The notes under the pieces: model-generated | What the model was told of the DNA's origin: nothing | The model's input: only the letters and a program-made list of their open reading frames with translations | The model's database searches: none | Source of the DNA: Kappaphycus alvarezii | Lineage: Eukaryota > Rhodophyta > Florideophyceae > Gigartinales > Solieriaceae | Direction: 5' to 3' | DNA length: 64,000 nt | Assembly (NCBI GenBank): GCA_002205965.3 | Contig: NADL03000674.1 | Location: forward strand, 186,001 to 250,000 | In this document: positions 1,757-37,582 of the stretch, piece after piece | Layout of the letters: every line of letters begins with the position of its first letter | Numbering within the stretch: position 1 is the stretch's first letter | Made by a program: the position numbers and the translations under genes

Positions 1757-4700
1757 GGAATAATTGGACAGAAGTCATTAGAGAGACAAAAAATTCCCGT
1801 TAGGGTGCTTCAGGACAGGTTTTCATCTCTGCGCAAGGAAAATTCAACGCAAAGCATTGCAACATAAAATTGAGACTAAAAAAAGTGCTACCGTGGTATA
1901 TTTTTGAGACAATAGACAGCAGGAGACGTTCTACAGACTTACGGCTCACGAGTATTACCCAAACAGAATGCCAGATTAATTAATTACTCTCACGAATCCC
2001 CCCCAAGCTGAGAAGATTTTTAACATTTTAGAATCATAGTTACTGTAGCAGCTCAGTCAGAGTAACTTTTGATTTATAGTACTTTCGTAGAATATCATGC
2101 CATGATTTCTTTGCAGTTCTAGTGCAAGGCAACGAGGTGGAACTAGAAAGTTTACGCTCCTAATTGCGTAAGAAATCACTACACAGTGTTTGAAGCCGAT
2201 TTATTTTTCACCTCTCTGCAGGATAGTAGCTCAAAAGTTGTGAGAACTTAGATGGTAGAGACTTTTAAAGAGTAAAAGGGAAAAACGAAACAAGGAAAAT
2301 ACGTCTTTCGCGTAAAAGATCACAAATGTTCAAGATACCTCGGCTAAGCAGGGCAGATAGGATATTTTTCTCCTATGAGGGATAAAAGGGATACAGATAC
2401 TTCCTTTTATGACAAAAACACTAAAAACGTAGAAAAATGAATGAAAATCAGGCTACTAAGCCAAGCTGATGGTCGTGGGTTGATGGTGCTTCAGGTCACT
2501 GTAACTGCAATCGCGATGCGTTCGTAAGATGGGGAGCGAAACTACCAAGAGAAATAAGCAGAGCCAAATTTCAAACAATGGTGAAGAAGGTACCTTCTGC
2601 ACCTATTTACTAGCAGGGGCACTCGGACAAAACATTAAAAACGAAGATATACTTAGCTTTTAACTAAGGTCGCGAGTTAAGAAAAGTTTCTTTCTGTTAG
2701 CTGATTAGCGGTCAGAAATATCAGAGCCAGTTATTGGTCCAGTGCCATGCTCAATAAAGTAAACTAATGTACAGTGCCCTGTAAAGTGTTAAAAATTAAT
2801 GGGCTACAGTGGCACCTAACACTTGTGGCTCGGAGAATGATTGCGAATATAGATTATTAGAACCATTTTCATACAAATTGGTATTTCAATACAACTGACT
2901 TCCACTTTTATCAAGAAAAGTTCAAAATTTCCCATTAGACATACCCATTCCTAATGAATATTTATGGGCTTCTTATTTTTGCCGAAACATATTGTTCTAG
3001 TACCGTGAATTCGGCACTAGAAAAATAATTTACCAGAAAAAGTACCAAATTATAGGGCCGAAAACGGGAGATAGAGGAAAAGAGAATTATTGAAAATAAT
3101 TTATAGCTAATTAACCAACAAAAAATCAACTTTCCCCTAGGAGCTCAATAATTCAAGTTTCGTCCACTCTACATCGAAGTGCAAAGTTAGCGTGAAAGAA
3201 GTTGGAAAGTTTACCTATACTTGATGGATATTTACAAAAAAACATTTATAGGTCCGAGCTTAACTTCTAACCTCGTTATTACTCAAGTCTGAGTTTCGAA
3301 TATTTCTCCCAATCGCTCAGTCTCTTTTGAGAAAATAATTTAGTCATAATGTGTCAGCTTTTCCAGTCTACTTAATTCAAAATAAAACTAGAATTAATAC
3401 CATTAAAATAATACGAATAATTCTTACTAACGAAAGATACCGAGACGCAAATACGTTTATGATAAACTGCCTTATTTATTTCCCCACAGATTTTAGTTTA
3501 CGAAAAGTGATAGGACAGATTTCGTGGCACATCCAGGACTCAGCAAGTTTCCTTCGAACATCTGCAAGCAGTTTTATTTCCTTTGATATCTCCGAAATTA
3601 TACATTCTCTAGCTCAATTTCCGGTGCTTATGTGTTCCCTTCGAGCAACAGGATCCCTTCATAAAATTATAGACAAAGAGATTTTTTTGTGCGTACATCA
3701 TGAGAGTAGACCAAGTGATTTGAAATCGTACAGGAGAAATCAACTGAATGCTCAACGGTTAGATTTCAATACAGTGAAAAGAATTTACAGAATACTGCTG
3801 TCACTCATTGAAGAATAGATAGAAGTATGACTGTAAGCCCTTTCCGATCTGGTCGCAAAGACTTGATGCTAACCTAACTTTTGATTATGATCGAGATCGA
3901 AAACGAGTAACACAAGTTCGTTAAAAAATATTTGTTTTAAATCTATTAATTTAGAGAATTCCTGTTTATACAGATGTAAATGCAAGTGGCAAAGAGACTG
4001 GGAGATATGTATGGATACAAGATTTGGTGATATAAGAAGAATTTTAGCTCGGAGAGGGTTGAGTGAATGTTATAAAAATTACTAAAAAATTAGGTATCCA
4101 AAAGTTCATGTATCTTGAAGATTCAATCTTGATGTTAGGAGAATATAACGGATACAAAAAGCTATAAAAAAATCCTTTTATCTAGGCTCATACGAAAAAC
4201 TGGAAGTGCATTTACTTGGATGAAACAGAGCGCAACAGTAGCTTGAAAGCTAAGACTAGAAGTATTCCAGGTTGTACATGTAAGATATCCTCCATAGAGG
4301 ACAGTGATGAATTTCTGTTTAAATTTTGAAGAATCGAGATGTGTTAGAAACAATTACGGTTCGGCGTCAAATATCAGTTCTACGTTGAAGCTTATTTATA
4401 GTCATGAAAGAGAACCATATTTACAGTAAATTTGTTAAAAAATGGATCGACATTCTTTCGGTTATTTTCCTTTAGACTAGAATAAATTCGACTCAGATTG
4501 ATACATACCTCTTCCGCGGCTTTACGGGTATACAAAATATGAAAAATTATAGTATAAAAGCTTATAAGAGGAAATTTATGGGTGCAAAGCAATATTGATG
4601 GGCTTAAGATGTACGCAAAACAGCGATAATATTGGACTCCGTAAGTTTCCCGCTAAAATGAACTATTTTGGTATTTCCTGAGATGTGTCTCTACAGCATT

Positions 4701-10136: not shown

Positions 10137-11813
10137 TTAGATGACGAACACATTTCCTGACGGGATTTGAGAGTCGCGAATATTAGTATTTCTGAGAACA
10201 ATCTCTCGAAATACGCTATCAGTCCTACGTTCTAGGTCTCGGATAAAGCCGCGGAATTCCGTGCTGAATTCCCTTGGGAATGCTCCTGTCCTTAAGTAGA
10301 AGAATTGATCTCCATCGCGAAGTCGTGTGAATTCGGCAGTCCACACGGCAACCATGGTCTCACCAAAACTGGAACCAGGGAGATGGTCCTCTGCAAGGAG
10401 CCCGGGGAACGCTTCAATGTCATCAACCTGTTCGTAAGCGGCAGACAAACGTGCTACAGTCACGCTATCTGAACTGATGTCCGAAAATGAGGTCATCTTT
10501 GGTAATCCGAAGACTTCACGAATTTCATTGTACTTCGGCAACGCGTGATCCCTGCCCCTCTGAATGTTGAGTGCCACTAGATCGAAACCCTCCTCAGCGA
10601 CAGGTGTGAACTCGAACAATTGGTTTCTGAGAGTATCGACAATTTTAACGTCTACTTCCTGTGCAAGCGAATTTGCGACGCCCCGAACGATATTTTCAAA
10701 TTCAGGCTCGTCGAAAGTGTCTGCAGGCCTGAAGAACACTTCTTCCATAGGAATTGGTGAAATTGGCCCAGACGGGGAAGTACGCGGAATGTTCGGGCCA
10801 ACCATGGTGTGACCAAAGCGAAACGCGGCTCCAGCAAAGAGATCGCTGACAGTTGGATCAGCACGGCGATCAAAAATTGTGTATCTAGGCAACGTAGATC
10901 CAACAATAGTAGGAAAGAACTCATCGTACACAATTTTCTGGAACTGGGCAATATTAAGCAGGCGAGCGTAGTCAAAGATTACATTGCCCGGGAGTCCAGG
11001 GAGGCGTTCCTTGACCAGATCTGCAAGGCGGTTATGCTCGCGCAGGAATAGGGTATGGACGGCAGTGAGAACTGGATGCTCATTCGAGCGATGGTCTCCA
11101 GCAATGAAGAAGTCATCAGTTGCATCAGGGGCATTGAATAAGCCATTAGTATTGCGCGGGAGCAGGTCCGAGCCAGATACCCTTAGCTTTCCTGTCGGGG
11201 TACCATTCTCGAGTTCCTGAAGGTCGAGCGCCCTCGCATCCTCGGGACCGTAAACTGCGACAAGATCAACCGGGGATGAAAGGATGTTGATTGGGCGAAC
11301 AGCAGAGCTGCCATCAACTCTAGCACGAGTAGATCTGAAAAACGGCAAAGTTTCCTCTTCAACATGCGCGTCTCCCTCAGGTACTGGAATGTCGAAACGC
11401 TCCTCCTCCTCTAACGGGGTGGCCGCGAAGTTGTGGTCCAGAAATTGGCCGAAGAAAACGAACAGCTGATTAATCCCGCGATCGTTTGGGATATCCCCTT
11501 CTTGATCACAGATGATGTTAGAGATTTCACGAGCAGACTTTAGATCATCTCCAATGGGCTCTTCAGCATTTGCGTCAGTGTAGCTGAACTGGGGGAGACG
11601 GGCCATGCCGAAACTGGGGTCGGTTTCGGAACTGCAGACACCAGTAAAAGTACGGATATCGATGCTGCGGCAAAAGCGGCGATCTCTAATGCGGTCTCGC
11701 AGAGGCGAAAGACTTTCGGCACCTATTCCATTTGCTCTAGGGGGTTGAGCGAGGACAACTGCGAATAGGACGCAGAAGAATTGGAGCCACAAGATGGAAA
11801 TCGCTGTAGACAT
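10137..11813 (-). CDS. Secreted animal-type haem peroxidase (intact)
   Basis: An intact 558-residue ORF with ATG start and TAA stop. The protein should be a haem enzyme of the animal peroxidase (An_peroxidase) superfamily that uses H2O2 to oxidise a halide or organic substrate. Residues 1-22 form a signal peptide ending near LAQP, so it should be exported. Landmarks: FGQFLDH (121-127) with the distal His127 and the ester-forming Asp126; GDHRSNE (239-245) with catalytic Arg242 and the second ester residue Glu245; FRFGH (331-335) with proximal His335; LNIQRGRDH (415-423) with the Asn that bonds the proximal His. The residue after the distal His is Asn128, where mammalian enzymes have a calcium-binding Asp. 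At 558 residues it is near a minimal catalytic domain, without accessory domains. It is intronless, paralogous to 17493-19162 and 60294-61962, and the only intact copy. The substrate cannot be told from sequence. Confidence 0.93.
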   Translation of the reverse strand: MSTAISILWLQFFCVLFAVVLAQPPRANGIGAESLSPLRDRIRDRRFCRSIDIRTFTGVCSSETDPSFGMARLPQFSYTDANAEEPIGDDLKSAREISNIICDQEGDIPNDRGINQLFVFFGQFLDHNFAATPLEEEERFDIPVPEGDAHVEEETLPFFRSTRARVDGSSAVRPINILSSPVDLVAVYGPEDARALDLQELENGTPTGKLRVSGSDLLPRNTNGLFNAPDATDDFFIAGDHRSNEHPVLTAVHTLFLREHNRLADLVKERLPGLPGNVIFDYARLLNIAQFQKIVYDEFFPTIVGSTLPRYTIFDRRADPTVSDLFAGAAFRFGHTMVGPNIPRTSPSGPISPIPMEEVFFRPADTFDEPEFENIVRGVANSLAQEVDVKIVDTLRNQLFEFTPVAEEGFDLVALNIQRGRDHALPKYNEIREVFGLPKMTSFSDISSDSVTVARLSAAYEQVDDIEAFPGLLAEDHLPGSSFGETMVAVWTAEFTRLRDGDQFFYLRTGAFPREFSTEFRGFIRDLERRTDSVFREIVLRNTNIRDSQIPSGNVFVI

Positions 11814-11923
11814 GATATGCGAGACTATGATTACCGATGATCGATGATTTGAGGAGGCGAGAGAGCTGATTTCGTCGACGGGATAGAGCAGATTTGTAAA
11901 AGTCGATGTCGGAGGATTGAGAC

Positions 11924-11931
11924 ATTTATAC
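11924..11931 (-). promoter_or_regulatory. TATA-like box upstream of the intact peroxidase gene
   Basis: GTATAAA on the minus strand, about 110 bp before the ATG at 11813, a plausible core promoter position if the 5' leader is about 80 nt. No other regulatory site is evident. Confidence 0.35.
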
Positions 11932-14464
11932 TCGTGTGGGGCAATGGTTCTGTGAAGGACGAAATCCCTCCGCTATTATCCGAGAGCTGAATGAGTCGGT
12001 GTGGAATAGCCCCTGACCACAAATGCTTCGAATGAAGAGGCTTATTCATCAATGCCAGAGAGGAGAGGACGAAACGAGGGGTTGGTTTACTGCGATGTCA
12101 AAGTAGGTTAAAGTCCTCGGAAGCTATGCGGTACAGCGATGTCGAGGGATCGATTGTGAAACGATGAGTGAAGATGCTATGGACCAGCTTGCAACAAGTA
12201 GTTATTAGTCTGTCAACACGCATGCCGCGTTCGAAGAAACCTGAAACGAGGCATGTCAAGGAAAGTACTCCTAATTGCGAAGCATTTGCGTGGAAGGGGG
12301 GGGAATCGCGGTGCCATACTGATTAGGGATGTAGGACGGCTATTTTCCAAAGACTAGGGGTTGAAGTGCTGTATTGCAATAATCTCTCGGCGTTAAGCAC
12401 AAAATTTCCGCACAACCACGAACGCGAGGGCTTTCTTGGCTGTTTGTATGATAAGTGGTGGGCCTCGCAGAACTCATATGCTGGTTCCAGTCCCCGGCAA
12501 TACGAAGTAGAGAAATTCGGTACTGCACTGCATGGTTGTAGAGCAAACAAGTTTGGCGTGACAGGCATTTTTATGGATTCACAGCAATTTCTCAATGAGC
12601 CATAATTTTCGACAACACCACCGTTCTACGAGATAACGCCTGATTAATTTGAGCAGCGACACTGCCATGTATCATACTGCACTGTACAGTACAATACGCT
12701 GCCTGGGTACCAGCCAGCATAAATGTTACAGTAAATGAACGCTGTTTTCCCCCAATTTGTGCATTGAGTCATAATTTTAGGCACCAATACATGCGTTTCG
12801 TACACGTAAGAGAATGTTACAAACCTCTTGCAAGGTAATTAGCAAAGGGACTAGCTAGTGCTCAAAGGTCAGAGCTATCCTGTTACAAAGATATGCTGCG
12901 TAACAGGTTGCTGCGAAGGCCGTAAGCCTGTTTGCAGAACTACTAGCTAGCTATTTTTTTGTTGCTTGTCCATAGCACCTGCACTCGCCGTTTTATTGTA
13001 CAGTAGATCTCGGACATCGCTATACCGCATAGCTTCCTATGGCTTCAACCAGGTTTTGCCATCACAGTATACCAACCCTACGTTTCCCCCGTGATGGAAG
13101 AATACGTTTCTAGTCCGACAATGCACTATTGCTGAAAGCCATGAGGGGAGCCAAGTTGCTGGGTTTAATAGCAACCAACGGTTCTCCAGGATATTTCGGG
13201 CCACAACCGACCATATCTTTCAAATATTAAAGCACCCCACATTCCCTCCGTTCTCCAAATGTTGTGGGTATCTCAAAACACCGGTAACACTGTACAAGTA
13301 TTTGTTCAACTTCGGTCTCGATTTATCCTCACAATCAGCTTGGAATTCTATGCATTCGTGCTCGTCTTTTAACTGCATGATTGCGAAGCCGATTGTGGTT
13401 GTCTAGAAAACTTAAGAATAGAATGAATATGTCTTCCAAGAGTAAAAGCACCCATTGCAAAGCGGTTCAATTACTGATTCGATCACAGGCAAAGCGTTAT
13501 ACTTCACGATAGTGCCATTCAGCCTCCCTACGTGCTGATCACGCCAACGAGTGGCCTTTCATAGTTCCTAGACAATGACTGCTGTTATGTGCCCAGCTTT
13601 ATGTTGCCCACTGTCAATAAGCTATGCTTTTATGGTTTCCATACATCTTTGCATTTGACATTTACATGTAAGATCCATAACATTATGCTCTGATTATTTT
13701 CCTAATATCTCGCTTGTCAGTTCATGCAAAATGGGGAAAGATTTGGATGTTTTACTCTTGGAGGATATATGCCACTCTCATGTAAAATTGCCGCAGCCTC
13801 TTAATTTCTTCGAAAGCCCTTGAAGAAGAGTTCGTACTAATCCTGATATTTGTAGGAATAACTTAACTCTACTGTGTTAACTTGTCACTTTTTGTCGTTT
13901 TCAACGTCTCTGTCATTCCGTGGAGAAAATTTTCGCGACCATTAATATCAGCCGGCCTATCTTTTACAGTAAATGAACCCCCTGTGTTCCCCACATATAC
14001 GAATGATATGAGAAGATAATTTTTTGTAGTATTCCCTTTTTGTCATAACATGTCAGTGCCATTCAATGCAGGGGGGCATAGGGAGTGTAATTACTGCGAG
14101 GCTCTGGAGGGCTGTGAAGTGGGGGAGTTGTAGAGGGGGGGATGGAGGTGCTTTACTGATTTGGGATGTAGGACGGCCGTTTTCCCAAGACTAGGGAGGC
14201 AGGTCTGTGTATAAGAGAGTCTGAAAATTAGGCAGAGTCAGGAGGGACGAGTTTCACAGGGCTGGTGTGAGGCCAGGTTTTCGAGGTGCAGGAATGCTGC
14301 GCCCATCAGTGCTCGTAGAAGCTCCCCATTTTAGCACAGGTGTACACATGAAATCTGAAACTTTGGGTGTTTTAAAGACTGAAAAATAGACTCTCCTTTG
14401 TTCAAAAGGGGAAAGGGGAAATTTTGGGTGTTTTTAATCCATGAAAAATATGGTCAGCAATTGT

Positions 14465-17492: not shown

Positions 17493-19162
17493 TCAAAGTC
17501 TGAACACATCACCAGTAGGAAGCTCGGATGCAATAATGTTTGTGTTGCGAATAATGATTTGTCGGAACAAGCCCGTACTATTAGTCAAGTCATGAACGCA
17601 ATCTCTCAGACGGCGACGGATAAGCCGAGGGAGAGCCCGACGGATTCGAAGGTAGAAGAACTGGTCCCGTCCCGCAGTCTCCTAAATTCTGCCAACCATA
17701 CTGCCGCCATAGTTGGACCGACGCTGGACCCTGGGACGTGGTCCTCTGCAAGGAGACCTGGGAAGGCCTCAACATCATCCACACTCTCGTAGGCCTTTTC
17801 CAGGCGATCGGCAGTTTCGGGGTCACTGCTTATTTGAGAGAAGCTGGTAAGCCGTGGAAGCCCGAAAATGCTGCGGACTCGGTTGAATGTCGGCAAAGCG
17901 TGATCCCGACTCCTCTGGATATTGAGCGCGATCAGATCGAATCCTTCCTCTAAGGGAACACTTTCGAATAACTGATTCCTGAGCGCATTTACAACCTTCG
18001 AATCAACTTCCTGCGCAACTGAGTTTGAAACACCGCGCATAACCGCTTCGAACTCCTCTTCGGTAAACGTGTCAGCTTTCCTAAAGAATAGTTCACCCAT
18101 AGGGACTGGGGTGATGGGGCCAGAGGGACTTTGGCGCGGGATCGTGTTGTCGACCATGGTATGACCAACCCGGAAGGCGGCCCCAGCGAAAATGTCCGAC
18201 ACAGTTGGGTTTGTGTCCCTACGGAATCCCCTGTAACTGGGTAGTCTGGAGCCAATGATGGCTGGGTAGAATTCCTCATATACGATTTTCTGGTATTGAG
18301 CAATGTTGAGTTTGCGGGCGTACTCGTAGACTTGCCTGGCCGGGAGACTAGGGATGCGCTGCCTGATTTTCTCAGCAAGATAGTTGTGCTCACGGACAAA
18401 GAGGGTGTGCAGGGCGGTGAGGGCAGGATGCTCATTGACGCGGTGGTCACCAGCTAGGAAAAAGTCTGCAGATCCATCTGGAGCATTGAAGAAGCCGTTG
18501 GTATTCCGGGGTAGGAGATTTCCTTCAGATACCTTTAGATTCCCCGTGGGTGAACCGAACTTGTCAAACTCTTGCAGCTCGTTGTTACGCAACTGGTTGG
18601 GGCCGTACACAGCGACCAGATCGACTGCGGACGGTAGCGTGTTGATGGGGCGACGAGCTTTACCTCCGTCGGCCTCGCCACGAACGGATCTGGTGAAGGG
18701 AAGGGTATCTTCTTCTACTTTGTCGTCACCATCGGGGACGGGGATATCAAAGGAGTCTCCCGCTTGAGTTGGGGTGGCTACAAGGTTGTGGTCGAGGAAC
18801 TGGCCGAAGAAGACGAATAGTTGGTTAATGCCACGACTGTTGGGGATTGATTCGTCTTGATCGAAGATGATGTTTGATATTTGACGGGCGGAGCGAAGGC
18901 CTGCACCTGTGGGTTTCTCAGAGGAGCTCCCCGTAATGTAGCTGAACTGGGCCATTCGGGCCTGACCCCACGAGGGGTCTCGCGTTGAAGTGCACTGGCC
19001 GGTGAGGGTGCGGCAGCTGATGCGACGGCACACGGATCGGCGCCGTTGAGTTGGACGAAGGGGGCGGAGGCTCTGAGAGCCACGACCGTTGGGCTCAGGG
19101 GCCTGGGAGAAGACCACGGTAAGGAGCAGGACAGCAAAGAGAGTGCGAAAGCAGAGAGACAT
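17493..19162 (-). pseudogene. Animal-type haem peroxidase, left-arm copy, one frameshift
   Basis: Paralogue of the gene at 10137-11813. I chose the ATG at 19162 because a signal peptide (MSLCFRTLFAVLLLTVVFSQ) starts there; the longer reading frame upstream would need GTG. It keeps FGQFLDH with the distal His, GDHRVNE with Arg and Glu, FRVGH with the proximal His, and LNIQRSRDH. After RRLRDG a G run is one base shorter (CCC at 17666-17668 on plus) than in the right-arm copy (four G). The frame therefore leaves the conserved C-terminus and stops at 17606; the homologous stop would be at 17493-17495. The right-arm copy has different breaks. Residual function cannot be excluded, because only the last 60 or so residues are changed. 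An assembly error in the G run is possible. Confidence 0.88.
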
Positions 19163-19491
19163 CGTGATGGTGGGGACAGGTAAAGTGACGGTTTGAGTTC
19201 CTGAGGGGAATTTTGTTAGGGGAATATCGTTCACGGCTGAGCTGTTTTCCGAGGAGTGGGGGAATGATGGGGTAGTTTACTCCTTCGTCTGACACTTCTT
19301 GCGGGGGAATCTTAACGGAGTTTCCCGAGGGAGAGCAGTTTAAAACAACATCTCCACAAGTCGGAAGGGCCTCCCAAGTTGAGCGATGGTGCACCATCAC
19401 GAGGGGGAATTGTGCAGCACATCTACAGGGATAGTGGATCAGCAGGAGAGGAGGAACCGGAACTGGATGGCCGAAACCATGCATACAGAGT

Positions 19492-25120: not shown

Positions 25121-25755
25121 GGATATGGTTGCGAAGACCCAAATATTATGACACCGTCAGAAATGCTCGAGAAGAGGCATTTACACTATATTTAGGGTTA
25201 GTGTTGTCACGCGTGCGCGCGAAGCCAATTTTTCATCTTCGTCATCTGAATTAAACATACTTAGCCCCTTCCTCTTTACGAAATTGCTTATACCCACGGT
25301 CCTCACTCATCCTCTTTTACTTTGCTGGACTCCCAACCTTTCCAATACTCGCAATAAACCACCCCTTTACCCCCTTTTGCTCAGCCCCAAACAGATACCA
25401 CCTATTCTTTCTATCCGTGCTTACCCTTTCAGCAGTCCTCTCCAAATTTACGGCTGTTTTACCTACATATTTCAATACTGTATCCAACCCTCTAAATTGA
25501 CCCCAAATCAAGTCCTCTTCCCTTTTTGCTTGTCCCATTCTATTAATTTATTTTTTCTGTGAAAAGGGGCGAAAATGAAATACTGAATTCCGCTTAGATT
25601 TATTTATCTATTTCAAATCTGCAGAATACACCCTTGAGAGCCTATTTAAACCCTGTTATTCCAAGTTCCAAACCCATTGATCATTCTACTTACTACTTAA
25701 CCCCTACCCATTCGAAACACCCTCAAGCCCCTGCCACTCTCTAAATTCCACCAAA
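25121..25755. other. Pyrimidine-rich stretch without a recognised gene
   Basis: Outside the inverted duplication. Strongly C/T-rich on plus between about 25260 and 25750, leading into the acidic ORF. I see no repeat pair or promoter motif that I can support. Confidence 0.35.
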
Positions 25756-26289
25756 ATGAAAAATGTATGCTCCTACAGCGTCATTTTCAAAACTCGCCAC
25801 CCTCGCCCCCTAAACGCCATTCGCCTACTCCCTCTAGACCCTACTGACCGCGATATATATCTCCGCCCGCAAACAAAGAAGAAGGTTGTCGAGTTCGTTC
25901 GTCGCTTGTTCATTGACGATGATGCAGAGGAGATATGTGAGGGGCAGGAGGTGGGGTTAGAGAATGGAGCTGGGGAGACTTTTGAGGAGAGGGCGGCCCC
26001 GGAATTGGTTTACGAGAATGGAGATAAGAAGAAGGATGGGGAGGAGGACGAGGATGAAGAAGATGACGAGGAGGATGAGGGGTAGGGAGAAATGGAAAGT
26101 GTTGGAATGGAGGGGCAGGGGCTGGGTAGTATTGAACAGTTTGTCGCGACGCTGGAACCGGATGCAGGCATCTTTCGTGGTTTAGATATTTTTCAGGAGG
26201 AAATGGCGATTGTAAGCCTTTCGAAGATATTTGTGGGGATTGTTTGGTTGATATCGATATTTTGGATGATTTGTTTGGATCTAGCGTAG
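25756..26289 (+). CDS. Acidic protein gene next to an LTR-like block (copy 2)
   Basis: Not a recognised family. An ATG-started ORF of 110 codons (25756-26085) reads a basic, hydrophobic N-terminal part, KKKVVEFVRRLF (residues about 42-53), and a long Glu/Asp-rich end. After TAG at 26083-26085 a second frame contains FEDICGDC (26219-26242) with an acidic-hydrophobic stretch, matching FERICGEC in copy 1. The two parts are in different frames, so this copy is either split or broken. It is followed from about 26300 by sequence related to the 720-bp LTR at 30092. That placement, at the 3' end of a retroelement in sense orientation, suggests an accessory gene between pol and the 3' LTR, but no pol is visible upstream. 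Confidence 0.5.
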
Positions 26290-26399
26290 GGAATTGAAAT
26301 TGTAAGGACTACAATCATTTCAACGTCTAATGAGAATCTTTTAAGTATCTTTTAATATCTTCACAGCATCTTTTCTTGGGATTCTAATTCCTTAGAAAA

Positions 26400-26755
26400 C
26401 GTTTCTATGAACTGATGATATTTAGTATGTGTTTGCCAAGAATTTAGGGGTAACAAAAAGTCTATTTAAGCTGAGTATACTGCTCTCTCAGAACGGGGTC
26501 AAATAAGTTGGCAGAAAACTTCAAGTCAAGTCCCAAGTATTGAAGAAGTTGAGAGTCAACTTCAGACCCAGTAAGCTTTTTTGTTAATTTTTGTAAGAGA
26601 CGATAGGTGGTACAGCCTGCCCCTTCTGAATATACTTGTAGACCCTTGGTTCTTCATCCACATATACTACTTTCTGATCCTTCAAATATACTACGGTAGC
26701 AATTTTGTCGCTTGCAAAACCTTTCTTCTGAGATAGTGAGCGTCAGATATCCCTT
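26400..26755 (+). repeat. Degenerate LTR related to the 30-kb Ty3/gypsy LTR
   Basis: Matches the LTR by eye: ATTTAGTATGT, TCTATTTAAGCTGAGTA at the TATA position, AAGTTGGCAG, GAAGTTGAGAGTCAACTTC as the hairpin, GGTGGTACAGCCTGCCCCTT, and CGCTTGCAAAACCT. Same orientation and order as 7812-8173. Confidence 0.65.
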
Positions 26756-27030
26756 TTCCGCCGTTTTACCGCTATCAAGTATCCGAGCGCCGCGTAAGGC
26801 AGCCATTGACTGGCCGAAGCAACAGCGGTACAATTACGCGTACTCAGAATCCAAATACAGGGCGAGGACGGTCGAGTAGGATCACAAAACCAAGCAAAAT
26901 CACCAAACAATTTTGAATTTTAGCATCGCACGAGTTATTTATCTTTTGATGACTACCCTACAAAAGACTCTCTCAACGAGCAGCATATCCACACATCCGC
27001 CCATGTGTACACCATGGCTTCAGCAGATTA

Positions 27031-30091: not shown

Positions 30092-30811
30092 TGATAGGGG
30101 TAAATCGTCGGGAGAAGAGATACTTAGAACCAACTACCCCAAGACGGAGGTGTTGCGAGCGACAAAAGTGCTACCGTGGTATAGTTGAACAAATAAAAAG
30201 GAGTGTATATGGGAGAGAGTTGAGAGGGCTACAAGCAAGTATAAAAGGGGCAGGGTCTACCACTGATGCTCTGCGACCAGCTTAGGAAAAAGTTTTCTAG
30301 GGTCTGAAGTTGACTCTCAACTTCCTACTACTCGGAGCTTGACCTGAAGTTGTCTGCCAACTTGCTTGACCTCTCAAGGAGGAAGCACTTTACTCAGCTT
30401 ATATAGACCTTTCGGCTAATCCTAAAGTCTCAATCAAACATACTAAATACCATAAAACGCATTCACGGGAATCGTGTGAACCAGAGAGACCATTAGAAGA
30501 TATTTCCTCAAGGTAAATATCTAGGTGCCATACCCATGCCAGCCACCCATCGGCCAGGGGTGGGAATTGATGTGGCCATTATATAGACCTTTCAGAGTCA
30601 CTCGTAGTATCACCCACAACCTAGAACTGTACTGACATCCACTATGACAGCGTGTCCTAAAATAAAAAATCAACCGATGAATTTGCCACACTCACCCAAA
30701 TTAAAAATATCTTGCAAATTCAAAAACTGTAAAAATATCTTCCCAGTTCCAATACTGTATACAATTATGGTCCTCATCTAAATTTTTTCGTGTGCGAATT
30801 TGCGCACATCA
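30092..30811 (-). repeat. 3' LTR of the Ty3/gypsy element
   Basis: In sense (minus) orientation it begins TGATGTG and ends CCTATCA. TTATATAGACCTTTC occurs twice on plus (30399-30413 and 30579-30593), so the sense strand has two identical 15-bp blocks each holding a TATATAA box. Downstream of the inner one lie two hairpins built on AAGTTG/CAACTT, one being GAAGTTGACTCTCAACTTC (30306-30324). Confidence 0.95.
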
Positions 30812-30830
30812 CGCCCTCCCGCTCAAGACG
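30812..30830 (-). promoter_or_regulatory. Polypurine tract of the Ty3/gypsy element
   Basis: On the minus strand GAGCGGGAGGGCG abuts the TGATGTG start of the 3' LTR, the expected plus-strand primer position. Confidence 0.6.
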
Positions 30831-30844
30831 AACGTCCCGGCTCG

Positions 30845-33800
30845 TCACTGCTCTTGTTGTTCTTGTGGGAGTTCTATCCATTCATCAGGGAGAGTATAGG
30901 GTTCACTATAAGGATATGGTAGTAGCTCATTTCCAATATGATGAGAGAGTGTGTACCGTGCGATGACCGGCTCATCTCCTTGGTCAAGAGTTTCGTAGAT
31001 TCGGCGTATGGTTTCATAGTGTTCTCTAATGAGCTCCTCCCGTTTCACTTCTCCAAACCTTCCAAATGTGAGGTAGTAAACGTAGTATGCAAACTTTTCT
31101 GGCAACGGGTCCAGAAACGGGTATCTGAAGGAGAAAAAAACTCGCAACATAAGGACTGAGTCCTCACGAGTAAGGTGCGCCCCGTGAATGGTCTGGAAGC
31201 ACATGCAAATACTAATGGCAAAAAAGGAAATTACTTCTGCTTCTCGAGGGTCCTCTGTCATTTCGCGAAGCCAACGTCTAATTGGTAGTCGTCCAATAAT
31301 TAAGGATGCATAGTTTCCCCCTGGGAGACTAGGCGGTGTTTGAGGCGATCTTCTTGGCGATCTTCCTCGCTGCTCCCGACGCCTTGCCCTCTTCGATGAT
31401 CCGCCCCGATCACTTGATGGTCCAGCTCGTATCATCATCACGGCCTCGGGAGGATCCTGGTCTTCGGCTGAGGTTGTATTTCTGAGCGGAGCAACGTAAG
31501 GTTCCCATAGAGGATATGGGACCAGTCGATATTCCATATCAGGGGGCAAGCTGTAACCTCTCAGTCGCACATCTTGGTTGTTCTTGAGAAATACGTAAAC
31601 TGGACGGATAATGTTCAGATATGTTTGCGACAAGTCTCCGATAGCTACCATTCCATACCTCCCTATAGAGTAATGATATATGACTTCCACAAACTCTGGA
31701 CCTGCTTCCGTGAACCTTCCGTTTTGGAATGAGAATAGAACTCTGATCAATAGTCGGAAATCTTCTTGAGGTAGCAATGGTCCGTTCAACGTACGAAAAC
31801 ATAGGCATATATTAATGTAGAAATGGATGATTACGTGGAGTTCGTAGTAGTCACGCGTAATCGAGATGATCCATTCCCAGGCCCTTTTTCCTCCCATAGG
31901 AATCATTCTATAGTTAAAGATGAGTATGCCTCGTGGTTGCGCATAGTCCTGTGTGAGAAGGAATTCTTCAGGCCTCTGATGGTAAGGGACCAGACGACGT
32001 GCATGGATTGCCCTCCTTGATCTCTTCCCTGAGCTTGAACAGAGCTTATAATGCGGGTGTCTTTCCTCCGTGACGATGCAAGGGTTCGAGTACTTTGTTT
32101 GGAAAGCCGGCCACTTCACAGCCTGTTGCATTGCTTTTCCGTGTGCTACAAGTACTTTAGAGCCGACTGAGAAAGTTTGGACTGGAGGCTCTTCATCCTT
32201 ATTTCTTGTCTGTGTTAGCGCGCGGTGTGATCTCCAGCTTTCGGTGGCCAATAGTTCGACCTCTCTACTCTCTTCATCGATAACATTTGTTTCCATATCT
32301 CTCTGTAACATTCTAGGAGCTCTTCCGTACATTAGCTCAAACGGTGACCGTCCACTTCTTCCTCTTCTTCGCCGATAGCCGTATAACACTTTTGGTAAGG
32401 CATCTTCCCACTGGATTTCATTCTCGGACATAGTTTTCGATATTGATCGTTTGATGGTTCCAACCATCCTCTCCGCTTTCCCGTTTGACATAGGAGCATA
32501 TGCGAGAACTGTCTTTAGCTGAATACCTTTTTCTTCCAAGAAACGAAGCAGTGAAGTTGCAGTAAAACAAAGTGCGTTATCCGAGATGATCCTTTTTGGA
32601 AGACCAAACGGTTCAATTATTTCTTTTTCGATGAATCTCAGGACCACTTCAGCATTGGCCTCCTCAACTGCAACTGCTATTGGCCATCCAGTAAGATGTT
32701 CCACCCCTATAAGGAGATATTTGTTTCCGGAAGAGGTTTCCTTGAATGGGCCGGCAAAGTCAATTGAAAAGGTTTCAAAGAGACCGGAAACTGGAAAGCC
32801 TAGAGTTGTCTTATACTTTCGTATTGGCGTGAATTTTTGACAGTTGTCGCAGCTTTTCACGAAGTTATAGACGTCCTTATGGATACTGGGCCACCAGAAT
32901 CTCTCAGTAACGAATTTCTTGGTTGTTTCGAGATCCCAATGCCCTAACTCATCATGAAAAGTCCTCAAGATCTTCATTCTTTCTTTCAAAGGGGCCACTA
33001 GTCGAGGACCGGCTTTCGTGTGTCGGAAGAGTTTCCCATTCCATAGTGTAAAAGCCTTTTGATTCCTACGTACCCAATTTCTGTGTTCAATATCAACCTT
33101 TCTCATTTCTAGTCCATCCAGGAATTTAATTAGTCCGTCAATATTAGCTTCGTACTCGTTATTGTTCGGCACTTGCACCTCGGCAACTCCGACGATGTTC
33201 TCGGAAGCTTTTTCATTTGGAATCAGTGGATCCCTCAAGCGGGATAGGTAGTCGGCAGGCTGATTATTGCGTCCGGGCCTATACACAATTTCAAACCGAT
33301 ATTCTGCGAAAATGTCGAGCCATCGGGCCAAGCGGTGATGTACATCTTTCTTTTGGAATGCTGTCTTAAGTGCCTGGTGATCAGTTATCAAGACAAATTT
33401 CTCGAGTGATAAAAGGTATACGCGAAACTTTTTCAGTGCGAAGACAACAGCGAGCGCTTCTTTTTCGCAGACTGAGTATCTCCTTTCCGCATCATTCAGA
33501 GTGCGACTTGCGAATTGAACCGGGTGTAGTCTTCCGTTTTCATCTTTTTGGGACAAAACGGCACCCAAAGACCGTTCTGAGGCATCTGTCTCCACAACAA
33601 ATGGTCTCTTGAAATCTGGATACATGAGCACTGGGGGGACACATAGCTTATCTTTAAGCTCTTCAAATGCGGTTTGCATTTCCTTGTTCCATAAAAATTT
33701 TCCGTTCTTTGTTGTGCTGGCATGTAACGGTGCTGCAGTCTTGGCGAAATCTTTGATAAATCTCCTGTAATATGAGGCCAGTCCTAAGAAGCTTCGAACC

Positions 33801-34897
33801 TCCGTCTTTGAAGCGGGCCTTGGTGCCAACTTGATTTTTTTCGTTTTCTCTGGATCCACTTTAATTCCCTCTTGATCGACGATATGACCGAGTAATTGGA
33901 TAGACGTTTTCGCAAAGAAGCATTTGCTTAACTTAATTTTCAGGCTGTACGCAGCTATTTTCTCCACCACAGTCTTGACATGCGATATGTGCTGATCCAA
34001 GGTTTTTGAGAATATCACTACATCATCGATATAAACTCTTGCAAATGGAAGTCCTTTCAAAACCTCGTTCATCATTCTTTGGAATGTAGCTGGGGCATTC
34101 ATGAGACCAAAAGGCATCACTTCGAACCTGAATGTACCGGCTTTGCTGGTAAAAGTTGTTTTTTCCTTGCATTTTTCATCCAATGGAATCTGCCAATAAC
34201 CAGTGTAAAGATCAATTGAGGTGAAGTATCTCCCGTCCTTCAAGTCCTCGAGGATTTCCTCCATATTCGGAATCGGAAATCGATCGGGTATCATTCTCTG
34301 GTTCAGTTGTCGGTAATCGACGCAAAAACGCAGCTTTCCATCCTTCTTTGGTGCGACCACAACTGGAAATGACCATGGGGATGAAACTGGCCGAATGATA
34401 TCATTTTCCAGCATACTTGTAACATTCTCTGAGATAAATTGGTCATATTTTGGCGGTTGACGTCTAGGCCTGTGGTAAATTGGTTTAGTATCGGTAAGTT
34501 CAAATGAGTGAGTGACCGGTACACTTGCTTGTCTTAAATCGGAAACGCTCCATGCAATTACTTCGGAAGATGTTAACATGTCGGATATTATCATTGAGGC
34601 GGGGGCTGGAAGGTGCTGTACTTTTTCTTGAATTTCTCCAATTTGGCGCTGGTCCTTTTCTTGATCCTCACCCTCCAAATTTTGAAGGACCTCTTCCGGC
34701 GTGCTCACATCTTCAGATATGGAATTCGATATATTCTTGTTTTCCGTGCAATTGTAATCTTCTTTCATGCCCCGAATTCCGTCCTTTGATTCGATATTAT
34801 CGCAAAAAGAAACACATTCAGGTGTCAAACCTACCCTAGAATTCCATTCTTCATCTGTTTCAAACCCAGAATCATAATCGTCCCATGTCATGTTCAT
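30845..34897 (-). CDS. Ty3/gypsy Pol: reverse transcriptase, RNase H, integrase and duplicated tail
   Basis: An intact ORF of 1350 residues. RT about 110-390 with CVDYRQLN, IDLYTGYWQI, MPFGLMNAPATFQ and catalytic YIDD (289-292). RNase H about 425-555 with TDAS (437) and TDHQ (505). Integrase: HHCC zinc finger about 648-686 (H, H, C-D-N-C), then catalytic Asp at about 713 (SIDFAGP), Asp at about 773 (SDNALCF) and Glu at about 809 (GKAER). A GPY/F-like module (about 910-970) ends the usual part. Residues about 989-1338 are extra: two diverged copies of one domain joined by an Arg/Ser/Pro-rich linker (see separate entry). The ORF's ATG overlaps the protease stop as ATGA and lies in the -1 frame. 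No chromodomain is seen. All catalytic residues are present, so the enzyme could be active. Confidence 0.95.
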   Translation of the reverse strand: MNMTWDDYDSGFETDEEWNSRVGLTPECVSFCDNIESKDGIRGMKEDYNCTENKNISNSISEDVSTPEEVLQNLEGEDQEKDQRQIGEIQEKVQHLPAPASMIISDMLTSSEVIAWSVSDLRQASVPVTHSFELTDTKPIYHRPRRQPPKYDQFISENVTSMLENDIIRPVSSPWSFPVVVAPKKDGKLRFCVDYRQLNQRMIPDRFPIPNMEEILEDLKDGRYFTSIDLYTGYWQIPLDEKCKEKTTFTSKAGTFRFEVMPFGLMNAPATFQRMMNEVLKGLPFARVYIDDVVIFSKTLDQHISHVKTVVEKIAAYSLKIKLSKCFFAKTSIQLLGHIVDQEGIKVDPEKTKKIKLAPRPASKTEVRSFLGLASYYRRFIKDFAKTAAPLHASTTKNGKFLWNKEMQTAFEELKDKLCVPPVLMYPDFKRPFVVETDASERSLGAVLSQKDENGRLHPVQFASRTLNDAERRYSVCEKEALAVVFALKKFRVYLLSLEKFVLITDHQALKTAFQKKDVHHRLARWLDIFAEYRFEIVYRPGRNNQPADYLSRLRDPLIPNEKASENIVGVAEVQVPNNNEYEANIDGLIKFLDGLEMRKVDIEHRNWVRRNQKAFTLWNGKLFRHTKAGPRLVAPLKERMKILRTFHDELGHWDLETTKKFVTERFWWPSIHKDVYNFVKSCDNCQKFTPIRKYKTTLGFPVSGLFETFSIDFAGPFKETSSGNKYLLIGVEHLTGWPIAVAVEEANAEVVLRFIEKEIIEPFGLPKRIISDNALCFTATSLLRFLEEKGIQLKTVLAYAPMSNGKAERMVGTIKRSISKTMSENEIQWEDALPKVLYGYRRRRGRSGRSPFELMYGRAPRMLQRDMETNVIDEESREVELLATESWRSHRALTQTRNKDEEPPVQTFSVGSKVLVAHGKAMQQAVKWPAFQTKYSNPCIVTEERHPHYKLCSSSGKRSRRAIHARRLVPYHQRPEEFLLTQDYAQPRGILIFNYRMIPMGGKRAWEWIISITRDYYELHVIIHFYINICLCFRTLNGPLLPQEDFRLLIRVLFSFQNGRFTEAGPEFVEVIYHYSIGRYGMVAIGDLSQTYLNIIRPVYVFLKNNQDVRLRGYSLPPDMEYRLVPYPLWEPYVAPLRNTTSAEDQDPPEAVMMIRAGPSSDRGGSSKRARRREQRGRSPRRSPQTPPSLPGGNYASLIIGRLPIRRWLREMTEDPREAEVISFFAISICMCFQTIHGAHLTREDSVLMLRVFFSFRYPFLDPLPEKFAYYVYYLTFGRFGEVKREELIREHYETIRRIYETLDQGDEPVIARYTLSHHIGNELLPYPYSEPYTLPDEWIELPQEQQEQ
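30884..31933 (-). other. Duplicated domain of unknown function in the Pol tail
   Basis: Copy A (residues about 989-1137) and copy B (about 1191-1338) align by eye. Shared landmarks in order: Trp with a hydrophobic run; FYINICLCFRTLNG against FAISICMCFQTIHG; an acidic turn (QEDF/REDS); LLIRVLFSF against LMLRVFFSF; a Pro/Glu/Phe stretch; a Tyr-rich segment ending SIGRYG or TFGRFG; a helix with YLNIIRPVY or HYETIRRIY; and PYPLWEPY against PYPYSEPY. The linker (1138-1190) is basic and rich in Arg, Ser and Pro. I know no such domain in gypsy Pol. The site corresponds to where other elements carry a chromodomain or an env-like gene. It looks globular and mostly helical. Confidence 0.85.
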
Positions 34898-35850
34898 TGT
34901 CCCCGAGCGTACCCTTTCTCACTTCCGAAAGTGTTAGTTGGTTCGGAATCTTCGCTGTCATAGCTAGAAGTGAAATCTTCACTGTCCGTCTCTCTTAGAT
35001 CTTCCGGATGTGTGCTTTTGTCGAAATCCAGGGGCATCTTCACGTTTCTGCCGTCAACATTAACTGAAACGATTTGGTTGCCCAAGTCAATGCAGGTCCC
35101 TAGTCTTTCCATGGTAGGGCAGCCAATGATTGCATCGAAAGGGAGATCAGGCATGACAAGAAAGTCTAAATCAACTTTAGAGTCCCCAAAGAACACGGAA
35201 ACCTTGTCAACAGTGCCCATGCATTTTGATACGGTTCCATCCGCCACAGTTATTCTTCGAGTAGTTGGAATAATTTCAAGACCTAGATCTGTCACCAAAG
35301 TTTCTGAAATAAGGTTTGGAACAGCGCCCGAATCGAAAAGAGCTTGGGTTTGCATTCCCAATACTTTGACTGGTACTAGTTTAAGACGTCTTGGTGCTGT
35401 CGAGGCCGATTGAAGAAACAGTTTCTTACCCTTAGCGGACTTATTAGACCTGATAATTTTTTTGAGTTCTTTCCTCGCGTCCTCTGCGTCGCCCCTCAAA
35501 AGTTGACCAAACGTTATCCCAGTTGGGGCTGATGCAAGCTCAGCCACCAAATTGTACTTCTTCACATATTCTAGTACGTCCTTTGGGATATTCTTAAATT
35601 TCTTACTCTTTTTCGTCTTCTTGGCCGGAGTGACTCCAACTCCTGGAACAACTTGATCAGACCTCTTGGTTCGAGGAGGTACAGGTGCTGGGATATGTTC
35701 CAGCATTCCATAATCTAGCCTAGGTTTCTTCGATAAAATGTTCCCTTCCCCATCCCTTTTTGTCACATTGACTTGACTGATTTCTTCAGCGATGGATACG
35801 TTACCGGCATCCGTCAACTTGTGATCCTTTCTGTTTTGTAAGATTTTCAT
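34894..35850 (-). CDS. Ty3/gypsy aspartic protease ORF
   Basis: 318 codons. A basic, Lys-rich N-terminal half (KKTKKSKKFK near 80-90) leads to a retropepsin-type protease that would cleave the element's polyproteins. The active site is LFDSGA (about 172-177), and DAIIG (about 250) is the usual second motif. An acidic C-terminal tail follows. It overlaps gag at 35847-35850 and pol at 34894-34897, each as ATGA with a -1 frame change. Its frame continues open upstream of its ATG into gag, where it encodes a second zinc knuckle (C-x2-C-x4-H-x4-C, about 35890-35945), so protein may be made as a gag-protease fusion rather than from this ATG. Confidence 0.88.
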   Translation of the reverse strand: MKILQNRKDHKLTDAGNVSIAEEISQVNVTKRDGEGNILSKKPRLDYGMLEHIPAPVPPRTKRSDQVVPGVGVTPAKKTKKSKKFKNIPKDVLEYVKKYNLVAELASAPTGITFGQLLRGDAEDARKELKKIIRSNKSAKGKKLFLQSASTAPRRLKLVPVKVLGMQTQALFDSGAVPNLISETLVTDLGLEIIPTTRRITVADGTVSKCMGTVDKVSVFFGDSKVDLDFLVMPDLPFDAIIGCPTMERLGTCIDLGNQIVSVNVDGRNVKMPLDFDKSTHPEDLRETDSEDFTSSYDSEDSEPTNTFGSEKGYARGQ

Positions 35851-36773
35851 CTCTGGTCCTGACTCGCTCCTTGCGTCCGATAAATTTGCTTTTCTGTTGT
35901 CTTTAGACCAGCAGTTACTTTCATGATGCCCATATCGGCCGCACTTTCCACAACGAGTGTTTCTATGTGGATTATCAGGACACTATTTGCAAAGTGTCCA
36001 GGCTTGTGACAGTAGGAACAGACTTCTGCGGCCTTGGGGGCCCCAGACTGGTTCTTCTTAATGGTAAGAGTAAGGCTTTCCAACTGCGAGGTTATCATGT
36101 CAAGTCGATTATCGAATCGGGTTTCCAACCTTTCTTCCAAGTTTTTGACATCGCTCCTGACTGATTCCAATGCTGCTGCGCTAGTCGCTGGCCTTTGATA
36201 ATTCTTTTCAGGATGTACGATAGACACCGATGTGCGGGTTTCCCTCGGTACCTCACTCAGTGACTGAAACGTCTCCGAATTTTTGACAAATTCTACTATG
36301 GTACCCTTCAGTTCATTAAAAGTGTGAGGGCCCTTGATGAGGAGGAAATCGGAGAGCCGCTTATCCCCCATCGCCGCCTTACGCAGCATTCCGTACTTGG
36401 CTTGGGCGTTGAACCCAGCCTTTTCATAGAGATCACACAAGTATACCAATGAGCTTAACAAATCGTCGAAGTTGAGCCGGGCCTCTATGGCGGTACGAAT
36501 CATCTCATCTGGTTCTACCTCCTTAGCATATTCTTTCACGAGCCACTCACATACCTCACCGAAGTTACGCCCATTCCCGTTAAGAGACCACCCGTTGATA
36601 AACTTGGCCTTATATTTGTGCTTTGCGTCACCATGAAGATAGGCGAAGATACTTTCGGCCTTCTCTTCATCGCTCTTCTCACGCATCACAACGTTGACAT
36701 ATGTATAGAGAAACTCCTCAACGTCTTCATTCTTGCCCCCTGTGAACGTTATACGAGCAGCGTTGAGATCCAT
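35847..36773 (-). CDS. Ty3/gypsy Gag (frame changes within the zinc knuckle region)
   Basis: 308 codons from ATG at 36773. The structural capsid region (about 1-170) has the retrotransposon Gag pattern (FTGGKNEDVEEFLYTY, then AESIFAYLHGDAKHKYKAKF). A coiled-coil-like stretch (about 205-240) precedes the zinc knuckle CSYCHKPGHFANS (252-264). The last Cys of the knuckle is not in this frame: it appears if one base is re-read at about 35980, after which the -1 frame reads a second full knuckle and runs on into the protease ORF. This is either a one-base deletion in this copy or a real -1 frameshift site; no canonical slippery heptamer is seen. Residues after 264 in the annotated frame are probably not native. 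Confidence 0.85.
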   Translation of the reverse strand: MDLNAARITFTGGKNEDVEEFLYTYVNVVMREKSDEEKAESIFAYLHGDAKHKYKAKFINGWSLNGNGRNFGEVCEWLVKEYAKEVEPDEMIRTAIEARLNFDDLLSSLVYLCDLYEKAGFNAQAKYGMLRKAAMGDKRLSDFLLIKGPHTFNELKGTIVEFVKNSETFQSLSEVPRETRTSVSIVHPEKNYQRPATSAAALESVRSDVKNLEERLETRFDNRLDMITSQLESLTLTIKKNQSGAPKAAEVCSYCHKPGHFANSVLIIHIETLVVESAADMGIMKVTAGLKTTEKQIYRTQGASQDQR

Positions 36774-36843
36774 GATTACAGAAAAGAAATCCCCTCGAAT
36801 GGTTCCCTAAGACTGCTCAACTCGAATACCTCGGGTGCAACCC

Positions 36844-36861
36844 CCTCCACAAGAGTACCAA
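36844..36861 (-). promoter_or_regulatory. Primer binding site of the Ty3/gypsy element
   Basis: Two bases after the 5' LTR, the minus strand reads TGGTACTCTTGTGGAG, starting TGG as expected for pairing with a tRNA 3' CCA end. It does not match the common initiator-Met primer site (TGGTATCAGAGC). The tRNA cannot be named here. Confidence 0.55.
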
Positions 36862-36862
36862 A

Positions 36863-37582
36863 TGATAGGGGTAAATCGTCGGGAGAAGAGATACTTAGAA
36901 CCAACTACCCCAAGACGGAGGTGTTGCGAGCGACAAAAGTGCTACCGTGGTATAGTTGAACAAATAAAAAGGAGTGTATATGGGAGAGAGTTGAGAGGGC
37001 TACAAGCAAGTATAAAAGGGGCAGGGTCTACCACTGATGCTCTGCGACCAGCTTAGGAAAAAGTTTTCTAGGGTCTGAAGTTGACTCTCAACTTCCTACT
37101 ACTCGGAGCTTGACCTGAAGTTGTCTGCCAACTTGCTTGACCTCTCAAGGAGGAAGCACTTTACTCAGCTTATATAGACCTTTCGGCTAATCCTAAAGTC
37201 TCAATCAAACATACTAAATACCATAAAACGCATTCACGGGAATCGTGTGAACCAGAGAGACCATTAGAAGATATTTCCTCAAGGTAAATATCTAGGTGCC
37301 ATACCCATGCCAGCCACCCATCGGCCAGGGGTGGGAATTGATGTGGCCATTATATAGACCTTTCAGAGTCACTCGTAGTATCACCCACAACCTAGAACTG
37401 TACTGACATCCACTATGACAGCGTGTCCTAAAATAAAAAATCAACCGATGAATTTGCCACACTCACCCAAATTAAAAATATCTTGCAAATTCAAAAACTG
37501 TAAAAATATCTTCCCAGTTCCAATACTGTATACAATTATGGTCCTCATCTAAATTTTTTCGTGTGCGAATTTGCGCACATCA
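36863..37582 (-). repeat. 5' LTR of the Ty3/gypsy element
   Basis: Same length and, by eye, same sequence as 30092-30811, with the two TATA blocks at 37170-37184 and 37350-37364. Transcription of the element on minus should start in this copy. Confidence 0.95.

Follow-up and report, generated by a model that had tools for sequence, protein, structure and literature searches.

A tandemly duplicated domain of no recognized family ends the Pol protein of a Ty3/gypsy retrotransposon in Kappaphycus alvarezii, with an outer copy that appears to have been exchanged as a block

Additions at the C-terminus of integrase can decide where a retrotransposon inserts, and few kinds of such additions are known. 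Among them, the chromodomain measures about 50 residues. Env-bearing Ty3/gypsy elements instead carry coding sequence between integrase and the 3' LTR. Chromodomains at the C-terminus of integrase are held to aid targeting (PMC3605345, PMC9289625), and the polyproteins of Ty3/gypsy and other retrotransposons have gained chromodomains, methylases, helicases, and AlkB-like proteins (PMC6338049, PMC9289625). C-terminal additions to Ty3/gypsy elements are a known kind, and we found no description of a duplicated tail such as the one reported here. Titles and abstract openings in an openly licensed literature collection, on red-algal Ty3/gypsy elements and integrase tails, the elements of the Kappaphycus genome, and domain swapping in LTR elements, described none.

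We analyzed a 64,000-nucleotide stretch of the genome of K. alvarezii, a farmed red seaweed (hereafter, the window). As shown in Table 1, the window holds a recently moved, many-copy Ty3/gypsy LTR retrotransposon (Metaviridae) whose Pol protein ends in two copies of one domain, T1 and T2. Pfam returned the domain order protease, reverse transcriptase, RNase H, and integrase, as in Ty3/gypsy elements, and motif positions placed the integrase triad at D720, D780, and E816, the last residue lying just past the rve match. RNase H models hit one region only (residues 410-540), and no second RNase H of the Tat/Ogre-like kind was found. The LTRs have TG...CA termini and a short target duplication, with the window copy's flanks sharing four of its five bases. 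The original prediction, made from this one copy, described an unrecognized tail fused to a Ty3/gypsy Pol between identical-looking LTRs. Both statements held: Pol continues for 362 residues past integrase (996-1357, 31933..30848), and the LTRs are identical. The span given for the tail, 30884..31933, was correct at its upper end but stopped 36 bases short at its lower end and omitted the strand, the tail being on the minus strand. According to the ORF list, no further ORF of at least 100 amino acids lies between integrase and the 3' LTR.

The claim of an intact ORF applied to Pol, whose catalytic motifs are in place, but not to gag, which is frame-broken in the window copy. This gag is split at the first zinc knuckle (35847-35982), where two other copies (L009, L028) read through, and the split may be genuine or have arisen in assembly. 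A GPY/F-like module had also been proposed ahead of the tail. The stretch KYSNPCIV...HARRLVPY does resemble one by eye, but the resemblance is weak and Pfam did not report SH3_Tf2-1 in the Pol protein at E ≤ 1. Elsewhere in the window, positions 151-1038 hold the end of another Ty3-type Pol in which Pfam recognized SH3_Tf2-1 (151-1035); the start of a chromodomain is visible there by eye, and Pfam reports none. The window also carries animal-type haem peroxidase genes as single long ORFs at 10140-11972 (Pfam E = 1.8e-115) and 17609-19276 (E = 2.7e-113), and a third haem peroxidase ORF at 60362-61870 repeats, by eye, long stretches of the one at 17609-19276.

Table 1. Positions of the element and its parts in the window
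Feature	Position	Strand	Basis
Whole element	30092-37582	-	bounded by identical 720-bp LTRs
5' LTR, 720 bp, TGATGTGCGC...CCTATCA in element orientation	36863..37582	-	720/720 match to other LTR
Likely primer-binding site	36843..36862	-	position alone: directly inside 5' LTR
gag ORF, 319 aa, broken at first zinc knuckle	35847..36806	-	ORF list
ORF of 362 aa with second zinc knuckle and aspartic protease	34894..35982	-	Asp_protease_2, E 1.2e-10 (Pfam)
Pol ORF, 1357 aa (P0001)	30845..34918	-	ORF list and translation
Reverse transcriptase	33878..34351	-	RVT_1, E 2.4e-34, residues 190-347; YIDD present
RNase H	33299..33616	-	RT_RNaseH, E 1.5e-38, residues 435-540
Integrase zinc-binding domain	32828..32992	-	Integrase_H2C2, E 2.4e-17, residues 643-697
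Integrase catalytic core with D720 and D780	32501..32767	-	rve, E 6.9e-9, residues 718-806
T1, inner copy of T domain, residues 996-1146	31481..31933	-	homologous to T2
Basic Arg/Ser/Pro-rich linker, residues 1147-1199	31322..31480	-	composition, pI
T2, outer copy, residues 1200-1357, type a	30848..31321	-	homologous to T1
Segment differing as a block from sister family (linker and T2)	30863..31480	-	course of identity against L034 and L033
Polypurine-tract region, 33 bp, from Pol stop codon to 3' LTR	30812..30844	-	31/33 identical to L034
3' LTR, 720 bp	30092..30811	-	identical to 5' LTR

Judged by their sequences, T1 and T2 are true homologues, in agreement with the prediction of two diverged tandem copies. 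BLASTP aligned them over 143 residues with 47 identities, 74 similar residues, and no gaps (80.9 bits), and their raw score was 198, whereas T2 shuffled 1000 times never scored above 47. Their DNA similarity has dwindled to one chance-like match of 15 nt (E = 0.33), which makes the duplication an old one. All motifs quoted in the prediction were found in the order given, and the 53-residue linker is rich in Arg, Ser, and Pro as claimed (10, 8, and 8 residues, respectively), with a pI of 11.6. We propose a T domain of about 140 residues with the pattern F-x-I-x-I-C-x-C-F ... R-V-x-F-S ... G-R-F/Y-G ... L-x-P-Y-P-x-x-x-P-Y. The pattern was defined from the window's family (family A) and a sister family (family B; L033, L034, L035, and L038), so the fit of these families to it is circular. 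Across T1 and T2 of both families, 37 columns are invariant. This number drops to 25 when P0002, the database relative described below, is included, as it deviates from part of the motif. AlphaFold models had mean pLDDT of 41.4 (T2 first, two rows) and 38.7 (T1 first, three rows). Both of these low-confidence models place helices at roughly matching positions, followed by an extended end with PYPxxxPY, and the T domains are probably helical on this modeling.

A strong Pfam match of both copies had been named beforehand as a refuting outcome, and at E ≤ 1 Pfam assigned no family to the whole tail or to T1 or T2 alone. The tail likewise had no match in PHROGs or NCBIfam, and no credible sequence match in the PDB. 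A search of the PDB with the tail alone returned an Sm D1 chain at E = 1.4, which we took as chance, and a profile of four T sequences returned zero PDB matches. Against 5.8 billion proteins, the 362-residue tail had no match at E ≤ 1 among 949 candidates, and region 996-1357 of the full Pol protein had none at E ≤ 10 among 2203 candidates. The four-sequence profile recovered one relative among 791 candidates, P0002 (E = 8.7e-42), which is a 144-residue protein from a contig of 1027 bases and 64% identical to the family B T2. Eukaryotic genomes are sparsely represented in these protein collections, so the scarcity of matches says little about other red algae. Pattern searches gave 333 matches in viral_contigs and 95 in genome_contigs, with zero relatives in either. 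A derivation of T from gag, from the protease ORF, or from other parts of Pol was also considered and rejected, with profile comparisons giving probabilities of 0.1-0.4%. No T domain was found in three loci of other Ty3 lineages (L017, L019, L036), which are few and fragmentary. In a more distant relative with an integrase 50% identical (L030), no T domain was found either, but this locus was not counted as tail-less because its frame is broken at that place.

Next, we consider the abundance and mobility of the element. The genome assembly searched comprised 336,021,096 bases in 884 contigs and contained at least 113 copies of the tail. Among the matches listed, all 113 had 99-100% identity to the window tail and 112 were without an internal stop, while a second genome search gave 100% identity for 150 of the 150 matches listed. 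Near-identical copies fill these listed matches, and more diverged copies do not show there. Sequence of the element group occurred in three of twenty 10-kb stretches chosen blind to content (L013, L024, L028), amounting to 8,384 of 200,000 bases. We tested seven copies for target duplications, separately from the window copy; these were the copies with both flanks, chosen for long open frames. All seven had perfect 5-bp duplications at different sites, which indicates that the elements moved as units together with the tail.

No shared target sequence was apparent by eye in 19 three-prime flanks, apart from a slight bias in the bases of the duplication. These flanks came from L009, L033, L034, L037, L038, L045-L056, L058, and L059, with the window copy excluded. 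Fifteen had originally been fetched and five were added from other copies, and L057 was then left out because its LTR match ended three bases early. The five-base duplication started with G or C in 15 of these 19 and ended with one of the two in 14 of 19, a weak preference, and base 6 after the LTR was a pyrimidine in 18 of 19. We also observed tails in the same orientation spaced by about 7.48-7.85 kb in six contigs of the assembly (G000), four with T2 of type a (C385, C420, C606, C671) and two with type b (C84, C335). This spacing resembles that of head-to-tail arrays, and in C385, the contig whose array was followed along its length, the unit is about 7528 bp with a single LTR between neighbours.

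Some copies have lost parts of the tail. Two loci (L031, L032) have a common deletion junction at which the integrase core meets the end of T2, and in a third (L039) the core is joined in frame to T2 with T1 lost. The absence of T1, or of T1 and most of T2, from these copies implies that the tail is dispensable in cis for a copy's existence. Such derivatives would presumably depend on other copies for what they lack. Since the one junction is present at two places in the genome (L031:930-975 and L032:3530-3575), the shortened form may itself have multiplied.

The interpretation in the original prediction was partly supported, and its suggestion that the tail has been kept by selection was borne out. 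On the basis of substitution patterns, the tail is under purifying selection on its protein sequence. Family B has the same architecture as family A and one open frame of 837 residues in L033 and 726 in L034, both cut by the start of the locus. Between family A and L034, dN/dS was 0.07 for integrase (dN 0.016, dS 0.231) and 0.19 for T1 (dN 0.052, dS 0.282; about 18 nonsynonymous and 28 synonymous differences), such that T1 evolves faster than integrase in this comparison. Between L034 and L037, a broken copy whose integrase shares about 87-89% identity with that of family A, values were 0.21 for T1, 0.27 for T2, and 0.30 for integrase. T2 gave 0.17 between L034 and L039. In the comparison of L034 with L013, dN/dS was 0.14 for T2, 0.46 for T1, and 0.48 for integrase. 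Assuming 72% nonsynonymous sites, the synonymous excess had binomial p values of 3e-6 (T1, family A and L034), 1e-5 (T1, L034 and L037), and 2e-3 (T2, L034 and L037). Support was weaker for T1 between family A and either L037 or L013 (0.43 in both). Very close family B copies gave 0.66 for T1 (L033) and 1.45 for T2 (L038), each on six differences, and 0.63 for integrase (L035, broken). These values come from few copies, of which L013, L035, L037, and L039 bear stops or frame breaks that push dN/dS upward. Stop codons in the tails of relatives had been named as evidence against a function. L013 does have stops and frame breaks there, yet it also has them in reverse transcriptase, RNase H, and integrase, which looks like the ordinary decay of a dead copy.

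Comparison with the sister family brought out a difference that the original prediction missed, and that is not visible from a single copy. Along the alignment of family A with L034, identity stays at 94-95% through integrase (893/949) and most of T1 (370/391), and the end of T1 has 52/62. It then falls to about 53% within the linker (70/131, with 36 gap columns besides) and T2 (238/439), and returns to 91-94% in the polypurine region (31/33) and the LTR (657/718, about 91%, with 69 gap columns besides). Both edges of the block fall within about 20 bp. The course of identity was the same against L033, and two further copies side with L034 in T2. One of these, L037, matches L034 at 397/437 positions in T2 and 147/167 in the linker. 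The other, L013, is the most distant copy (reverse transcriptase about 74% identical), and its T2 is B-like, with identities of 0.67-0.82 to L033 versus 0.33-0.60 to family A in eight 60-column windows starting at element position 6245.

A sharp-edged block in which T2 is about 54% identical between flanks of 91-95% looks like replacement of the family A linker and T2 by recombination. From these alignments, the apparent source of the segment at about 30863-31480 is a lineage that diverged before A, B, L037, and L013 separated from one another. T2 of type a and type b are 51% identical to each other and 33-35% identical to T1, which marks the donor's domain, too, as an outer copy. The motif DPPEAVMM is common to the linkers of A and B, which otherwise differ for the most part, and its retention in both types suggests a donor with the same layout. 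Such exchange usually arises by template switching between co-packaged RNAs. Only family A differs from the rest in this way, so that a single event would account for the replacement of T2.

Exchange is not confined to T2 and, on sequence comparison, reaches to the form of the LTR. LTRs occur in a short form of 720 bp and a long form of about 1.5 kb, and all four combinations with T2 type were found: type a with short (the window, L001-L009) and long (L060) LTRs, and type b with short (L033, L034, L038) and long (L035) LTRs. The long form has an acidic ORF of 184 residues inside the LTR, located at L060:3619-4170 within the LTR at 3106-4615. Relatives of this LTR were observed at L031:2440-3885, at window positions 25419-26777, and in L035 and L024. 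The window stretch resembles a lone long-form LTR (69% over 1417 bp). For the ORF, dN/dS was about 0.27 between L060 and L031 and 0.30 between L060 and the window, these relatives holding two and one stops, respectively. Hence, the LTR-encoded protein may be under selection, judging from these ratios.

What might the tail do? We favor, at a probability of roughly 0.38, an integrase-borne arm that binds a host factor and has an exchangeable outer module. We arrive at this reading by analogy, because of the tail's position, as in chromodomain-bearing relatives, and its exchange, as in systems with swapped recognition parts. T1-T2 would remain as the C-terminal part of integrase or of a late cleavage product of Pol, with T1 and T2 as small helical binding modules flanking a basic, flexible linker. 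The arm would have a host protein as its partner, for instance a factor of chromatin or of nuclear entry, with T1 as the conserved anchor and T2 as the part conferring specificity, and template switching between co-packaged RNAs could bring in the T2 of another lineage. Counted in favor of the arm are the in-frame position immediately behind the C-terminal region of integrase and 33 bp ahead of the 3' LTR, selection, block exchange, mobility with the tail, the linker's pI of 11.6, and the similar runs of helices. Counted against it are the low pLDDT values (41.4 and 38.7), the lack of a shared target in the flanks, the derivatives that have lost parts of the tail, the few copies and the weaker ratios among the dN/dS values, and the fact that one event would suffice for the exchange. 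A more specific version, in which T1-T2 is a new fold forming a two-part host-recognition arm on integrase with its outer cassette swapped by recombination, is conceivable but doubtful. Alternatively, the element's protease may cut the tail from Pol, releasing an accessory protein that occupies the env position and acts, for example, against a host restriction factor, with T2 in an arms race. This alternative fits nearly as well as the integrase-borne arm, and we hold it to be possible, if somewhat improbable. The env position, the replacement of T2 as a block, and the faster evolution of T1 than of integrase between A and L034 (0.19 vs. 0.07) all agree with it, and the DPPEAVMM retained in the linker could be a processing site. 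However, only one tail dN/dS exceeds 1 (T2 of L034 and L038, 1.45, from six differences), and none of Pfam, PHROGs, or NCBIfam matched the tail.

The remaining explanations are less likely. If T served the particle in its structure or assembly, for example as a helical domain of capsid type joined to Pol, the mostly helical secondary structure of both low-confidence models would be expected, but gag is present as a separate ORF and a profile comparison of T with this element's own gag gave a probability of 0.4%, which makes this explanation unlikely. We consider it very unlikely that the tail is a degenerate envelope protein. It precedes the 3' LTR, and hydropathy in T2 reaches a mean of 1.67 over its most hydrophobic 19 residues, yet this value is borderline, means are lower at the equivalent place in T1 (1.28) and in the tail of family B (1.44), the stretch sits in a predicted helix of the repeated domain, and there is no separate ORF. 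The most improbable of these explanations is that T2 of A and B diverged through rapid point-by-point evolution rather than recombination. It has no direct support, and the A copies compared include none of intermediate age. In contrast, synonymous divergence between A and L034 reaches saturation within the block versus 0.23-0.28 outside of it, and both the abrupt edges and the four combinations of T2 type with LTR form argue against gradual divergence.

If the integrase-borne arm is real, an element could change its host target or escape from a host factor in a single step, much like the exchange of surface or receptor-binding genes in some viruses. Families A and B offer a natural comparison, being almost the same element but carrying distinct outer modules, the part in which they differ most. 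Should their insertion patterns, processing, or host partners differ, the function of the module would follow. Their T2 also seems to offer a clear example of cassette exchange within a Pol gene.

When placed in context of described elements, the closest likeness is to chromoviruses, in which an extra folded domain also ends integrase. The present tail differs in having no chromodomain or other Pfam domain, and in carrying two domain copies, each about 150 residues long, of which the outer is block-different between families. Env-bearing Ty3/gypsy elements have coding sequence in the same interval between integrase and the 3' LTR, whereas this tail, compared with errantivirus-like elements, is in the Pol frame, forms no separate ORF, and has no convincing transmembrane anchor (best 1.67). 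The AlkB-like 2-ODD genes of orchid Ty3/gypsy elements, the DNA methylases of others, and the helicases of retrotransposons are likewise lineage-specific additions to a canonical gag-pol (PMC9289625, PMC6338049). Those additions belong to recognized families, whereas the T tail matched none, is tandem-duplicated, and is in the Pol frame. Unassigned coding sequence is also present in plant Ty3/gypsy elements that have additional ORFs without a known domain (PMC9289625), while the T tail is distinguished by its location inside Pol, its internal duplication, and its block difference between families.
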